From the IMG/VR virus record IMGVR_UViG_3300036791_000334, positions 1 through 40,238 of that record: a stretch of 40,238 nucleotides of DNA. The stretch is one strand, 5' to 3'. This document shows positions 13,403 through 23,576 of this stretch, piece after piece (position 1 is the stretch's first letter; every line of letters begins with the position of its first letter). The notes beneath the pieces are model-generated. The model did not search any database and had not been told where the DNA came from. It saw nothing but the letters and a program-made list of their open reading frames with translations. Both the position numbers and the translations under genes were made by a program. The DNA comes from a virus.

Positions 13403-13585
13403 TTAGCTTCTCCGATCCGGGCGAGCTGACAGTAGCGAGGCGACCCGTGCCTTCGCGATCGCGGCCTCGACGATCTCTGAGGGGGCAGATCGAGCGTCGA
13501 GGTCGCGGGGCGACTCCTTGAAGCGCCGAAACGGGCGCGTGACGACGAACATCACGAGCCCGAGCGCGAGGCCTTCGGCGATCAT
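13403..13585 (-). CDS. small membrane protein, 60 aa
   Basis: 60 aa from ATG 13585, overlapping the upstream gene by ATGA. One N-terminal membrane segment (IAEGLALGLVMFVVTRPF) is followed by a basic RRFK stretch and a soluble tail. It is the last gene of the leftward recombination block. Function unknown. Confidence 0.55.
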   Translation of the reverse strand: MIAEGLALGLVMFVVTRPFRRFKESPRDLDARSAPSEIVEAAIAKARVASLLSARPDRRS

Positions 13586-14019
13586 GCGAAGAGATCCGGC
13601 CCGGGCTCGGGCGTCGGGCGACGCCGCGGCCGAGGTGGCGGCGGCGGCTGGCGATGGAAGGCCGCGCGCAGCGCGTCGACGCCGGCGACCATCGAGCGCG
13701 CGAGCTTTTCCTGCAGCTCGCAATGCTGCTCAAGCTCTTCGACCGTGCGCGCGATGTAGTAGCCGCCGGCGCTCGAGCGCGTGCTCACGACCGGCACGCC
13801 GAGCGCGCGCTGCAGGAGAAAGACGGCCTTGCGCAAGTGCCGCAGATTCGCATCGCTCGGCGGCTTGTCGAGCTTGCGCAGCAGCACGAGCGCCGGGAGC
13901 GCCGTGCTCTCGCCGCGGCCGAGGTGCGCGGCGATCGCCATGAATGACGCCGGGCACGAGTGCGGCTCCTCGGTGAGCGGATCGGTCCACTCGTGCAACG
14001 GCTCGCGCTCGGCGCTCAT
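13582..14019 (-). CDS. winged-helix-like protein, unknown function
   Basis: 145 aa from ATG 14019, which overlaps the previous stop (ATGA). Residues about 30-85 (ALVLLRKLDKPPSDANLRHL, then LLQRALGVPVVSTRSSAGGY) read like a winged helix with a final GGYYI strand. A helical segment and a Pro/Arg-rich tail follow. It could be a DNA-binding regulator or a recombination accessory protein. The family is not certain. Confidence 0.45.
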   Translation of the reverse strand: MSAEREPLHEWTDPLTEEPHSCPASFMAIAAHLGRGESTALPALVLLRKLDKPPSDANLRHLRKAVFLLQRALGVPVVSTRSSAGGYYIARTVEELEQHCELQEKLARSMVAGVDALRAAFHRQPPPPPRPRRRPTPEPGPDLFA

Positions 14020-14693
14020 CGCTGGCTCACCGGCCCGGCGGCGATCGCCGGCTCGGACCATACCCGCACGCCGGCGATCCGCGCGTCGCCTTTGAGCGCT
14101 TGCACGACGCGGCGGATCTTCGACTCATCGGGCACGAGATACTCGCGCGGGAGCTTCGCCTCATCCTCGACGACGAACTTCCACACCTCGCGCGTCTGCA
14201 CGCCGGCGACCTTCGGCGGCTGCCGCTGAATCACCGGAGCGACGACGGCGTCGGCTTGCGCCCCGAGCGCGGCGGCCTTCTCTACCTTGCCCGAGGTCTC
14301 GGCGACGAGCGCGCGCTCGCGCAAGCGCTCTTGCGTGCGCCGGGCGGCCTCATCCGCGCGACGCTGATCTTCGCGGCGCTGCGCGGCGAGCTGCTCGGCG
14401 TAGACGACCATCGAGCGCTTGATGCCGATCTCGGCGGCCTCGAGCTTCGTGACGAACGGGCGAAAAAACGCCATTGCCGCGGCCTTCGCCTCGTCGATCG
14501 GGCGCGTGATCGCCTTGCGCACCGCATCGACGCGCGACTGCGCGGCCTTGATCTGCTTCAGCTCCTCACCGGCCGCCTCATACTCGGGCGCGGTCGCGAT
14601 GCGCGGGTAGTTGGTCGCGCGCGCGAGGAGTTGATCGCTCTCGGTGGCGAGCGCCCGGACCTCGGGGCGCTCAGCGATTTCGGCGTTTATCAT
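14016..14693 (-). CDS. coiled-coil protein of the recombination cassette
   Basis: 225 aa from ATG 14693, chosen because GGAGATTCAAAA precedes it; an in-frame ATG at 14711 is possible. The first ~150 residues are helical and charged (EYEAAGEELKQIKAAQSRVD, RKAITRPIDEAKAAAMAFFR). The C-terminal ~60 are a conserved-looking segment (TREVWKFVVEDEAKLPREYL). Proteins of this type are often encoded beside RecT/Bet and exonuclease genes in phages, but their function is unknown. The start lies inside the end of the nuclease gene, implying coupled translation. Confidence 0.55.
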   Translation of the reverse strand: MINAEIAERPEVRALATESDQLLARATNYPRIATAPEYEAAGEELKQIKAAQSRVDAVRKAITRPIDEAKAAAMAFFRPFVTKLEAAEIGIKRSMVVYAEQLAAQRREDQRRADEAARRTQERLRERALVAETSGKVEKAAALGAQADAVVAPVIQRQPPKVAGVQTREVWKFVVEDEAKLPREYLVPDESKIRRVVQALKGDARIAGVRVWSEPAIAAGPVSQR

Positions 14694-15297
14694 TTTTGAA
14701 TCTCCAGACATTCAGCGCTGAGAGGTAAATGTGCCAGTCGGTTGCGCACCGGAGCGGCTCGAGCTTGTAGCCGTTGGCGAGCGCGGGATTCAGCAGTAGG
14801 CAATAGCGGCGGCGGATCTTGATCCCGCGCGCCTCGCACGCCTCCTTGTACGCGGCGGTCTGCGGCCCGACCGAGCGCGGCACGGTGACGCCGCTCTTCA
14901 CGTCGAAGAGATCGACCGCGGGCGGCTGCAGCATCCCGAGCAGATCGAGCGTGCCGGCATAGCCGACGAGCCGGTGCGCGACGCGCAGCTCGCTCGCGAC
15001 GACCCGCACGCCCGACTCGCGCAGGAAACGGTCGGCGCCGAGCATGCACTCCTCGAGCCAAGGGTCGAGGCTCGAGCGATCGAGGCGCCCGCGCACGAGG
15101 AGCGCAAAGGCCTCATGCACGAGCTGACCCTCGGCGCGCCGGCGCTCAATCGTTTCCCATGGCACGCGCTCGAACTCGTCGAGCTGATCGTCGAGGACCC
15201 GCGTCACGCCGGGCACCTCGACACCTTCGAGCTTGTAGCGGTGCTCGATCGGCTCGAAGTGCAGCTCGGGGAGCTGCGCGGCTAGCGACGCAGCCAA
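14671..15297 (-). CDS. PD-(D/E)XK exonuclease of the recombination cassette
   Basis: 208 aa, start 16 bases inside the end of the bet-like gene. Core motifs occur in the right order for a RecB/Cas4-like nuclease: G.LVHEAF (about 58-64), SELRVAH (Glu103), YAGTLDLLG (Asp118), DLFDVKSG (Asp132, Lys134) and QTAAY (146-150). It should resect double-stranded ends to give single strands for the partner annealing protein, as lambda Exo does for Bet. A start so close to its partner supports this pairing. Confidence 0.75.
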   Translation of the reverse strand: MAASLAAQLPELHFEPIEHRYKLEGVEVPGVTRVLDDQLDEFERVPWETIERRRAEGQLVHEAFALLVRGRLDRSSLDPWLEECMLGADRFLRESGVRVVASELRVAHRLVGYAGTLDLLGMLQPPAVDLFDVKSGVTVPRSVGPQTAAYKEACEARGIKIRRRYCLLLNPALANGYKLEPLRCATDWHIYLSALNVWRFKNDKRRNR

Positions 15298-16118
15298 GCG
15301 AGCGCATCCGCGACTTTGTCGAAGGGCAAGGCCTCAAGCGCGGGAATGCCGAAGTGCTTAAGAAGCTCCTCGAGCACGCGATCGCCGCGCGGATCTGACT
15401 CGGTGTTGCCGGCCTCCTTCACCGCATCGAGCACCATCGTCAACTGATCGGTCGTCGCGCGCACCGGCTCGGCGTCGACCGACTGCGGGCGCCGGCGCTC
15501 GGGCTGCGCCGCGAATTGCGCCTCGATGATGCGCTCGGCTTCGTCCGGATCGTGCACGCCGGCGAAACCGAAGGCGAGCCGCGCACACTGAATAAAGGCC
15601 TTGTGCCGGAGCATGCGCCGCGGGTGCGAGGTCCATGCCGGAGTGTCGCGCTTGCACTCGTCGAAGTATTCGCGCACCGAGACCGGCTTGTCGCGATCGC
15701 GCCGCGTGATCGTACAGGCGATCCAACTCGGGATCACATCGTCATCGACGTCAGGGTACTCGAAGGAGAAGCTCGCGAGCTGCGGATGCTCGTTAACGAT
15801 CCGATCCCAACCGTCGATCGAGATCACCGGCACGATCCCGCCCGCCTTGTCGGGGAAGGCGAAAATCTCCCTAGTCCATGGGTTTAGGTTGTATTCCTTC
15901 GCGACGACGAGAAGCGACATCATCTGTTCGTTGGTCACCTCGATCGGCGAGCCGTCCTTTCGAGTCTGGCGGAAGGCGGTCGCCTTGAGCGTCACCAACA
16001 TCTTGTCGGGATCGACGCCGAATTTCTGCGCCATGTGAGTGACTAGCGACTGACGGCTCTCGGGCGATGAGGTGCCCGCCGTGTTCTTCGATTGCTGCGA
16101 CTTTTGCTGTGTGCTCAT
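15282..16118 (-). CDS. bet: Bet/RecT-family single-strand annealing protein
   Basis: 278 aa, ATG 16118 with ribosome site GAGGGGAAACG. The RecT/Bet domain is clear: EQMMSLLVVAKEYNLNPWTR, EIFAFPDKAGGIVPVISIDG, then TPAWTSHPRRMLRHKAFIQC and ARLAFGFAGVHDPDEAERI. A variable linker and a small C-terminal helical domain follow (LLKHFGIPALEALPFDKVAD). It anneals complementary single strands during phage recombination. It forms a leftward operon with the exonuclease and the coiled-coil protein. The N-terminal ~25 residues are Gln/Ser-rich and disordered. Confidence 0.9.
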   Translation of the reverse strand: MSTQQKSQQSKNTAGTSSPESRQSLVTHMAQKFGVDPDKMLVTLKATAFRQTRKDGSPIEVTNEQMMSLLVVAKEYNLNPWTREIFAFPDKAGGIVPVISIDGWDRIVNEHPQLASFSFEYPDVDDDVIPSWIACTITRRDRDKPVSVREYFDECKRDTPAWTSHPRRMLRHKAFIQCARLAFGFAGVHDPDEAERIIEAQFAAQPERRRPQSVDAEPVRATTDQLTMVLDAVKEAGNTESDPRGDRVLEELLKHFGIPALEALPFDKVADALAWLRR

Positions 16119-17636: not shown

Positions 17637-18605
17637 ATGGCGCGAATTCGCACGATCAAACCCGATTTTTGGTCCGATGACACTGTCGGCGAGCTGTCCT
17701 TCGCGGCGCGACTGCTTTTCATCGGATGCTGGAACTTCGCCGACGATCACGGCAACCTCGAGCGCTCGGCGAAGCAACTGAAGGCGCAAGTTTTCCCGCA
17801 CGACGTGATCGACTGCGAGCCGGTCGTGCGCCAACTCATCGACGCCGGCCTCCTCTTCGAGTACGAAGGCACGCCCGAGGGCAAGAGCCCGAGAAAGTAT
17901 CTGCATATCAAAGGCTTCGCCGATCACCAAAAGGTCGAGCGCCGCGGCGCGCCGCGCTTCCCGCTACCCGAGGCCTCACCGACGGCTCACCGAATCCTCA
18001 CCGACACCTCACCGAGTGCTCACCGACTCCTCGAGGTCTCTTCTCTGGAAGGGAAGGGAAGGGAAGGGAAGGTAACGGAAGGGAAGAGCGCTACGCGCTC
18101 TCCGGAGCGCGCGCGCGCGTGCGAGGCCGAGGATGCTGAGCGGCTCGAGGCGTGGCACAAGCTGCACGGCGAGGCGCCCGACACTCCTCCGCTCGAGGTC
18201 GAGGTCGAGGTCGAGATCGGCGAGCGCGAGGCGTGGAGCGTGCTCGAGCGGGTAAAGGCCGCCTACCCGGCCGGCGTCTACCTTGCGGCCGACTGGATTC
18301 TCGCCGAGCGTCATCTGCGCAACCGTCTCGCCGAGGGCATCCCGCCCGATGAGCTGATCGCCGGCTGCGCGCGCTACGCCGCGCAATGCGTCGCGCGCGA
18401 GTGCGGCACGCGCTTCGTGCGCTCGCCGAAGGATTTCTTCGCGAGCCCGGCCGATCGCTGGCGCGAGCCGTACCCGCTCCCGACCGAAGGCGCTAGGCGC
18501 GGGAAGAAAACCTTCGACGACTACCGGCGCGAGCGCGAGGAGCGCGAAGTGCGCGAGGCCGAGCCGGGCGGCGAGCAGCTCAGCGCGGAGCCGTTGCCGT
18601 TTTGA
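17637..18605 (+). CDS. replication initiator (lambda O-like / replisome organiser) with internal origin
   Basis: 322 aa. Residues 1-105 are the winged-helix domain seen at the N-terminus of phage replisome organisers: MARIRTIKPDFWSDDTVGEL, ARLLFIGCWNFADDHGN, KQLKAQVFPHD, YLHIKGFADHQKVERR. A low-complexity linker (113-150) is encoded by an 11-bp repeat array and a purine tract. The C-terminal ~120 residues are helical (AYPAGVYLAADWILAERHLR) and should contact the helicase loader encoded next. As in lambda O, the origin appears to be inside the gene. Confidence 0.8.
   Translation: MARIRTIKPDFWSDDTVGELSFAARLLFIGCWNFADDHGNLERSAKQLKAQVFPHDVIDCEPVVRQLIDAGLLFEYEGTPEGKSPRKYLHIKGFADHQKVERRGAPRFPLPEASPTAHRILTDTSPSAHRLLEVSSLEGKGREGKVTEGKSATRSPERARACEAEDAERLEAWHKLHGEAPDTPPLEVEVEVEIGEREAWSVLERVKAAYPAGVYLAADWILAERHLRNRLAEGIPPDELIAGCARYAAQCVARECGTRFVRSPKDFFASPADRWREPYPLPTEGARRGKKTFDDYRREREEREVREAEPGGEQLSAEPLPF
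17975..18029 (+). repeat. five tandem 11-bp iterons (CTCACCGANNN), probable replication origin
   Basis: CTCACCGA recurs five times at exact 11-base intervals starting at 17975, 17986, 17997, 18008 and 18019; only the last three bases vary. A degenerate sixth copy (CTACCCGA) stands at 17964. Eleven is not a multiple of three, so the repeat is not explained by protein repetition and points to DNA function. One-turn spacing puts every copy on the same face of the helix. It lies in the linker-coding part of the initiator gene, as the iterons do in lambda O. Confidence 0.75.
18047..18085 (+). other. purine tract with four GGGAA repeats (G-quadruplex-capable)
   Basis: GGG runs at 18051, 18056, 18061 and 18066 are separated by AA, which fits an intramolecular G-quadruplex. 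The all-purine strand continues to 18085 with few breaks. It begins 18 bases after the iteron array, the place where an origin usually carries its easily melted element. The encoded protein (EGKGREGKVTEGK) is a plain charged linker. Confidence 0.55.
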
Positions 18606-19147
18606 GCAACACGAAGAAAACTCTCGCCCGGTTTTGGTCGGCGATGGGCGAGCGCTTCGGCAAGCGCTGGCTCGAGGAGTACGGGCCGGAGCCGACGCGC
18701 GCTTGGCGCGATACGCTCGATCGCTACACACCGACGGTGATCGCCGACGCGCTCGGGGCGCTCAAGGATCGGCCCGAGCGCGTGCGCGCGCATCCGCCGA
18801 CGCTCGACGAATTCGCCGCGATCCTCGTGTCGTGCGATCGCAAGGCAACGCCGGCCGCGGTCGACTACTCGCGCGGCTACTGGCGCTCGATCGTCGTGCG
18901 CAACCTCGAGCGCGATCTGTGTTACGAACGCAAGCTCGTCAAAGTCGAGGATCTCGAGGCCTACATCGCACGCCGCGAAAAACCTTTCGGCTCGCTGCGC
19001 CAACTGCTCGACGAGCTGTGCGACATGGAGCGCAAAAACTCCGGGCAGCGAACGCTCGGGATGTACCAACTCGCGGGCGAGCGCTGCCGCTCGACCGTGC
19101 TCGTCGCAATCGAAACCAACGCAGGGGAATCACATGCTCACGCTTAA
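18602..19147 (+). CDS. helicase loader, replication protein P-like
   Basis: 181 aa starting at TTG 18602, overlapping the stop of the initiator gene; ATG 18644 would shorten it. The sequence LARFWSAMGERFGKRWLEEY followed by W...L and HPPTLDEFAAIL resembles lambda P-type loaders that bring host DnaB to the origin. The rest is helical, with KNSGQRTLGMYQLAGERCRS near the end. The O-P order, tight junction and origin inside the first gene all support this. Confidence 0.65.
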   Translation: MSNTKKTLARFWSAMGERFGKRWLEEYGPEPTRAWRDTLDRYTPTVIADALGALKDRPERVRAHPPTLDEFAAILVSCDRKATPAAVDYSRGYWRSIVVRNLERDLCYERKLVKVEDLEAYIARREKPFGSLRQLLDELCDMERKNSGQRTLGMYQLAGERCRSTVLVAIETNAGESHAHA

Positions 19148-23003: not shown

Positions 23004-23576
23004 GTGACTCGTGCACGTTTGACCGCCGGCGGCCTCGTCTCGCTCGCGGAATTCGGCCGGCGGCACGGCGTGACGCGCGAGGCGGTGCGTGCGGCGGTCA
23101 AGCGCGGCCGGATTCAGCTCTCGAAGGGCGGCAAGATCGACCCGCGGACGGCTGACAAGGCGTGGCGCGCCGGGCATGACCCGGCCGGTCACGGCGGAAA
23201 GAGGGGCACCGGGCCGTCGAGGCGGGGCGGAGCGCGGTCTCGAGGGGGGCGCAAGGTGGGCGAAAGTGGGGCGGAAACGCCCGACAAAGCGCCCGAGAGC
23301 GGCCTCACCTTTCTCGCGATGCGCACGCGGCGCGAGGCGGCGGCGGCGGCGATGGCTGAGTTGCAGCTCCGCGAGCGGCAGAGCGAACTCGTCGCCGCGA
23401 AGCAAGTGCGCGAGCGCGTCTTCCGGGCGGCCCGGGCGGCTCGAGATCTCGTGCTCGGGATCACCGACCGGCTCGCGCCGCGGCTCGTCGGGCAAGACGA
23501 GGCGACGATCCGCCGGCTACTCGGCGAAGAGACGGCTCGAGTCTGCACTGTGATCTCACATGCTCCGGATCTATGA
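23004..23576 (+). CDS. terS: terminase small subunit (Nu1-like)
   Basis: 190 aa from GTG 23004. N-terminal HTH (LVSLAEFGRRHGVTREAVRA, then AVKRGRI) as in Nu1-type DNA-recognition subunits. A Gly/Arg-rich linker (60-95) follows, then helices for oligomer formation and large-subunit contact (LQLRERQSELVAAKQVRERV). It overlaps the large-subunit gene by 17 bases. It should bind cos and position the packaging motor. Confidence 0.8.
   Translation: MTRARLTAGGLVSLAEFGRRHGVTREAVRAAVKRGRIQLSKGGKIDPRTADKAWRAGHDPAGHGGKRGTGPSRRGGARSRGGRKVGESGAETPDKAPESGLTFLAMRTRREAAAAAMAELQLRERQSELVAAKQVRERVFRAARAARDLVLGITDRLAPRLVGQDEATIRRLLGEETARVCTVISHAPDL

Follow-up and report, generated by a model that had tools for sequence, protein, structure and literature searches.

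A probable phage replication origin within the gene of its own initiator: 11-bp iterons followed by a coding-strand GGA-repeat tract

Background

Does the gene of a phage replication initiator also contain the origin at which that initiator acts? The question is raised by a 40,238-nucleotide viral DNA (IMG/VR record IMGVR_UViG_3300036791_000334, hereafter the window), in which two kinds of tandem repeats lie one after the other within the codons of such a gene. Two precedents exist for this arrangement: the origin of phage lambda, located inside gene O, and the RepA_N plasmids such as pSK41 of Staphylococcus, in which a winged-helix N domain binds boxes central in the rep gene and the origin encodes the central linker of the protein, while the C domain is conserved only within a genus (PMC5703833). 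The repA gene is both required and sufficient for replication of the RepA mycobacteriophages (Miko, Rachaly, Jeeves); their origin is considered likely to lie within this gene or beside it, although repeated motifs were reported to be absent from the stretch examined (PMC7157519). As for the way in which origin DNA is opened, it is described as still unsettled (PMC5043065).

The analysis presented here indicates that the repeats of the window are very probably a phage replication origin within the gene of its own initiator, on a plan like that of lambda and the RepA_N plasmids.

Methods

Relatives of the initiator were sought with N-domain seeds and alignments only, and the linker was never used to select members; the window protein alone, used as a query against viral contigs, gave no confirmed relative, and N-domain alignments were used instead. 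The survey comprised 80 loci from viral contigs, 80 loci from bacterial species genomes and 230 further loci from later viral scans, and provided 219 non-redundant members, divided into a discovery set (n = 105) and a holdout (n = 114). The TCNNNGA core was derived from the discovery set and then tested on the holdout.

Results

The initiator protein and its neighbours

The initiator protein matched three PHROG profiles, all named 'replication initiation protein': phrog_1408 (E 3e-29; 3.4e-29 over residues 1-161), phrog_2149 (E 7e-29) and phrog_16167 (E 7e-27), the first of which places it among the PHROG 1408-type phage replication initiators. Searches of Pfam (0 families at E 0.1) and NCBIfam gave no match, and a PDB sequence search gave nothing meaningful. 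In the AlphaFold2 model, residues 11-110 form one block (pLDDT 93-98), which has weak wHTH matches to the RepA N-domain (4pql/4pt7) and DnaD; Foldseek likewise returned weak winged-helix matches only, the best with an E of 0.08. Residues 121-155 are predicted to be a disordered linker (pLDDT about 36) between two folded domains. Phages of many bacterial phyla carry an N domain of this type, and for the members searched neither Pfam nor NCBIfam gave a match.

The next gene probably encodes a P-like helicase loader: its product aligned by BLASTP (E 3e-6, 28% over 61 aa) with an annotated 'replication protein P' located 3' of the initiator in relative L400; PHROG profiles gave no call for it, and its Pfam matches were all below threshold. 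In other relatives, a DnaB-like helicase or helicase gene directly follows the initiator. On the opposite strand (13582-16118), leftward genes for a RecT/Bet-like annealing protein and an exonuclease-like product form a recombination module opposite the replication module.

Table 1. Features in and beside the initiator gene of the window
Feature	Position	Strand	Basis or remark
Replication initiator gene, 322 aa	17637..18605	+	PHROG profile matches
N-terminal winged-helix domain, codons 1-112	17637..17972	+	AlphaFold2 and weak wHTH matches
TCGGCGA, single unit at conserved first N-domain array position, nt 49 from ATG	17686..17692	+	Relic, no full array
TCATCGA, single unit in second conserved N-domain register, nt 199	17836..17842	+	Relic
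TCTTCGA, single unit in alternative second register, nt 217	17854..17860	+	Relic
Iteron 1, CTCACCGA, core TCACCGA at 17976-17982	17975..17982	+	Sequence
Iteron 2, CTCACCGA	17986..17993	+	Sequence
Iteron 3, CTCACCGA	17997..18004	+	Sequence
Iteron 4, CTCACCGA	18008..18015	+	Sequence
Iteron 5, CTCACCGA	18019..18026	+	Sequence
Degenerate sixth unit, CTCGAGGT	18030..18037	+	Sequence; within lag-11 segment 17968-18043
Array-tract junction, 26 nt GGTCTCTTCTCTGGAAGGGAAGGGAA, identical in relative L010 in another frame	18035..18060	+	Sequence comparison
GGA-repeat tract, (GGAAG)8 on coding strand, proposed opening element	18047..18086	+	Repeats; conserved in family
C-terminal helical domain, codons 156-309	18102..18563	+	AlphaFold2 secondary structure
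Next gene, probable P-like helicase loader	18602..19147	+	BLASTP

The repeats of the window

The first-pass annotation of this DNA had described five repeats at an exact 11-base spacing, with a degenerate sixth, followed by four GGGAA repeats, and both descriptions were reproduced. The five perfect CTCACCGA units span 17975-18026, about 340 nt into the gene, in codons of the disordered linker between the N and C domains, and Tandem Repeats Finder reports a period of 11 with 5.4 copies at 17974-18032. The four perfect GGGAA units (18051-18070; 0 matches in 100 shuffles) belong to a longer tract, for which the same program gives GGAAG, period 5, 8.0 copies. The gene scores 31 at lag 11 and 27 at lag 5, whereas the maxima over 5000 of its synonymous-codon shuffles are 22 and 15, respectively, and both segments are the best of their period across the whole window. 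The gene carries in its linker codons an 11-bp TCNNNGA array of five units that exceeds the synonymous null. At the N-domain level, the arrays of the window are reduced to three single units (Table 1). The second-best 11-bp periodic stretch of the window (23236-23276) is made of G-rich AGGGGGGCGAA units unrelated to the iterons. GC skew of the window was uninformative on the start site.

Recurrence of the iterons among relatives

The bacterial species genomes with relatives, following the taxa named in their records, include several proteobacterial classes, actinobacteria, planctomycetes, bacteroidetes and others. In the discovery set, self-similarity at lag 11 significantly exceeded that of synonymous shuffles in 60 linkers (the region 3' of the N-domain codons) and 35 N domains; the linkers also showed lags 22 (40 members) and 33 (28 members), together with lags 5 and 10 that come from the tract, and self-similarity of the N-domain codons was limited to lags 11 (35) and 22 (18). 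Lags 9, 12 and 13 were at background, and the C regions of the 105 members had no significant lag at all.

The common core in this set is TCNNNGA, mostly TCRNYGA, a quasi-palindrome. Its pairs at 11 bp numbered 192 in linkers vs. 21.8 (sd 4.7) and 104 in N domains vs. 12.3 (sd 2.9) under synonymous nulls, with none in C regions and no excess at 10 or 12 bp. This roughly eight- to nine-fold excess was repeated in the holdout: 107 pairs vs. 13.3 (sd 3.5) in linkers, 87 vs. 12.5 (sd 3.0) in N domains, none in C regions, and counts at or near the null for the other spacings from 7 to 21 bp. Many relatives have further arrays in the DNA-binding-domain codons, no more than 230 nt from the start of the gene; these begin at nt 49 or 60 (0-based, counted from the ATG) and in either of two registers that lie between nt 177 and 228. 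The one-turn-spaced iterons first noticed inside this initiator gene thus recur, on this survey, across a whole family.

The pattern has variants. In about 35% of the members the whole gene is devoid of TCNNNGA pairs at 11 bp; some of these carry other motifs or a 10-bp spacing, and in some none is visible (L143, L156). In a clade of 26 members near the actinobacterial seeds, the region 5' of the tract, taken alone, has its periodicity at lags 10, 20 and 30, lag 11 being absent, vs. 11, 22 and 33 in the remaining members, and CTC-CTC pairs at 10 bp number 86 vs. 30.9; both periods are about one helical turn. Linkers with 10-bp iterons (ACTCNCCGAA-like) and a GGA tract are those of L170-L194, L006, L070, L106, L113 and L154, a clade of actinobacterial type, and mycobacteriophage Butters has CTCGCGAGACC-like units at 11 bp. 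Other observations concern three 11-bp units (ACGACGTGAAC etc.) joined into a 33-bp compound repeat in the Bacteroidales member L105 (2898-3013), GGTGAC repeats on both strands in place of the family core in the Cupriavidus member L169 (2780-3150), and two Magnetococcales proteins (the above-mentioned L143 and L156) of only 151 aa, devoid of array, tract and C domain, which may be regulators or origin-less relatives.

Selection at the DNA level

An 11-base period was expected to run out of step with the codons and to reflect selection on DNA rather than on protein, and both expectations held. The five core starts of the window fall in frames 0, 2, 1, 0 and 2, and across the family the linker units use all three frames (160/159/122). 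Among low-purine 16-mers common to the linkers of different members, 472 of 1518 (31%) are read in different frames, vs. 35 of 10001 (0.35%) for all 16-mers common to their N domains. The 26-nt junction shared with L010 illustrates this: it is translated as EVSSLEGKG in one and as GLFSGREG in the other. Together with the synonymous shuffles and the family survey, these frame shifts of shared DNA argue for a DNA-level function, encoded in a linker that, judging from its modelled disorder, would tolerate almost any peptide.

This evidence leaves little room for the possibility that the repeats are low-complexity coding sequence or the product of replication slippage, with no DNA function. Disordered linkers do tolerate repeats, but shuffles that preserve the protein abolish the signal, lineages far apart share the unit and its exact period, which are also found in codons of a well-folded domain, and the shared DNA occurs in different frames; we regard this explanation as barely credible.

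The GGA-repeat tract

Of the 219 members, 205 have a run of purines (median 40 nt) on the coding strand of their linker, and in 109 of the 120 that could be placed it lies 3' of the iterons, at a median distance of 12 nt. Its GGA repeats are mostly spaced by 5 bp (763 spacings), also by 6 bp (133), and GGANNGGA occurs 767 times in the family vs. 184 (sd 12) in synonymous shuffles. The strand is also conserved: at least four GGA within 32 nt are found on the coding strand in 185 members and on the other strand in 16, and the coding-strand GC skew of the tracts averages 0.9. At the tract, GC is 4% below the gene mean; in thermodynamic profiles it is on average the weakest 30 bp by a small margin, and these profiles revealed no AT-rich unwinding element beside the array.

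The tract had been read as G-quadruplex-capable, and a role as a coding-strand G-quadruplex finds some support: in the window, AA loops separate four G3 runs, the canonical three-tetrad motif (G3+N1-7)4 occurs in 45 of the 205 tracts (22%) vs. 12.7 expected after shuffling, and the two-tetrad (G2) motif in 174 vs. 110. The excess over base shuffles is, however, accounted for by the regular 5-bp spacing itself, 160 of the 205 tracts lack the three-tetrad motif, runs of at least four G are depleted relative to shuffles, and in some members the same place is filled by GGAAA, GGAGAA, GGATAC, GGATCAA or TTGGTTC units. What is conserved is GGA on the coding strand every 5-6 bp, and not the quadruplex motif, so that this role is improbable, and G-quadruplex formation would at most be open to some members, the window included.

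Another short tandem repeat replaces the purine tract at the same place in L215 and L295 (TTGGTTC) and in L390 (GTCGA), the repetition persisting where the sequence changes.

Iterons and protein domains

The C domains swap among members: DnaT in L005, Phg_2220_C in L109 and unclassified domains elsewhere, with 37 classes in 117 members. Iteron similarity is correlated with N-domain similarity (partial rank correlation 0.445; 0/300 permutations) and shows no association with C-domain similarity (0.010); likewise, the iteron distance is 2.0 for members with like N and unlike C domains vs. 4.8 for those with unlike N and like C domains. The core type (TCA or TCG) agrees between the N-domain and linker arrays of one genome (42, 2; 12, 36; Fisher p 8e-13, to which phylogeny contributes), as expected if one protein reads both. 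An initiator that carries its own origin predicts that N domain and array travel as one module, and the association could also come in part from shared ancestry and from physical linkage, since the array adjoins the N-domain codons.

Discussion

Likeness to lambda and to plasmid origins

The proposed lambda-ori-like layout inside the initiator gene was borne out: the iterons of lambda occupy nt 349-433 of gene O, and directly after the fourth the coding strand reads ACAAAAGACACTATTACAAAAGAAAAAAGAAAAGA, which belongs to the strongest run of purines in that gene. As proposed for the window, the origin lies in codons at the linker position, with dyad-symmetric iterons, then a coding-strand purine run and the gene of the P helicase loader next. 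The differences concern the units: the four iterons of lambda are 18 bp long, with starts 20-24 bp apart, and its run is A-rich, whereas the window and its family have 7-bp TCRNYGA cores every 11 bp and a GGA run of ordinary GC content; relatives, unlike lambda, have additional iterons within the codons of the DNA-binding domain. A search of lambda O for TCNNNGA pairs at 11 bp gave none, and Pfam indicated no homology of the window initiator to lambda O (0 families at E 0.1). The AT-rich region of lambda is itself described in a review as having nearly all purines on one strand (PMC5043065, citing Schnos 1988). The statement that a G-rich tract takes the place of the AT-rich element therefore has to be qualified: the strand asymmetry of purines is common to both, and it is AT-richness that has been lost.

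With the RepA_N plasmids, the window shares the three-part plan of N domain, central linker and C domain; the position and disorder of the linker would fit one encoded by an origin, and annotated relatives are named 'RepA-like replication initiator'. Unlike them, it has no RepA_N Pfam match and differs in hosts, iteron unit and tract, and the structural similarity of its N domain to 4pql (VIA Z 7.2, 89 aligned, rmsd 3.7) is weak and tied with unrelated winged helices. The Rep_3 iteron plasmids have iterons of about two helical turns and an AT-rich opening element; with a period of 11 bp and a family tract only 4% below gene GC, the window falls outside this class. The RepA mycobacteriophages resemble the family in their published description. 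The plan is a known one, and what differs here are the 11-bp TCRNYGA iterons and the GGA-repeat tract. The open-access literature, which leaves most subscription journals outside, held no description of an origin in PHROG 1408/2149/16167 genes or of this origin family, which is weak evidence of absence. As for a Klebsiella 'plasmid' (L402, NZ_CP129204.1), considered as possible proof of plasmid replication by the initiator gene, it was rejected on account of its integrase, excisionase and full lambda-like phage gene order, and is probably a circularised prophage genome.

A possible mechanism and its alternatives

In the mechanism proposed here, the winged-helix N domain would bind the quasi-palindromic TCRNYGA cores (TCACCGA in the window), the one-turn spacing would line the bound subunits up along one helix face, and the assembled array would strain the neighbouring DNA. 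The tract 3' of it, with all purines on the coding strand, would then open, aided by transcription of the initiator gene itself, and the initiator would hold the exposed strand while the P-like product of the next gene would load the replicative helicase, and replication would start at this site.

Initiators often bind sites near their own gene, and the repeats might instead be operators for autorepression or roadblock by the initiator, or for copy-number control, with replication starting elsewhere. The arrays within the first 230 nt of many relatives would suit such operators, but the linker array, so far into the gene, is distant from any start and is coupled at short distance to a conserved opening-like tract; moreover, the identical order in lambda is an origin, and RepA_N plasmids keep theirs in the rep gene (PMC5703833). 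We consider operators of this kind quite improbable. A variant of the tract-opening step that is compatible with an origin would make the tract an R-loop zone, where the purine-rich transcript stays hybridised and the coding strand is displaced for helicase loading, as in ColE1: transcription activates the lambda origin and a persistent hybrid opens that of ColE1 (PMC5043065). The coding-strand GC skew of the tracts points the same way, and in 175 of 205 members the 25-nt stretch of the gene that most favours a hybrid falls within the tract, although any coding-strand purine run scores thus and the tracts were selected on purine content, so that this test is not independent; a few members, such as L215, have pyrimidine-rich tracts. 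The R-loop is on the whole somewhat unlikely, strand capture by the initiator being the other possible mode of opening.

For the origin reading as extended to the family, we tentatively propose, as a possibility short of even chances, that in a large family of temperate phages across phyla the opening element is a strand-specific GGA tract of ordinary GC, recognised or opened through its purine asymmetry (by strand capture or a transcript hybrid) and not through AT-richness, and that the origin comprises as many as three 11-bp arrays, of which two lie in codons of the DNA-binding domain.

Significance

In lambda, AT-richness and purine strand asymmetry are confounded, whereas some 200 putative natural origins of this family retain the asymmetry but are not AT-rich. 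The grammar found here, TCRNYGA every 11 bp (or the 10-bp form in actinobacterial phages) and then coding-strand GGA repeats, makes a probable origin locatable by sequence; it could be used in many phages and prophages without annotated origin, as the layout recurs in about 200 related phages of very different bacteria. The family also offers small replicons for testing. Finally, iterons within the codons of the domain presumed to read them would mean that a protein sequence and the site it binds evolve together in shared bases, an unusual situation.
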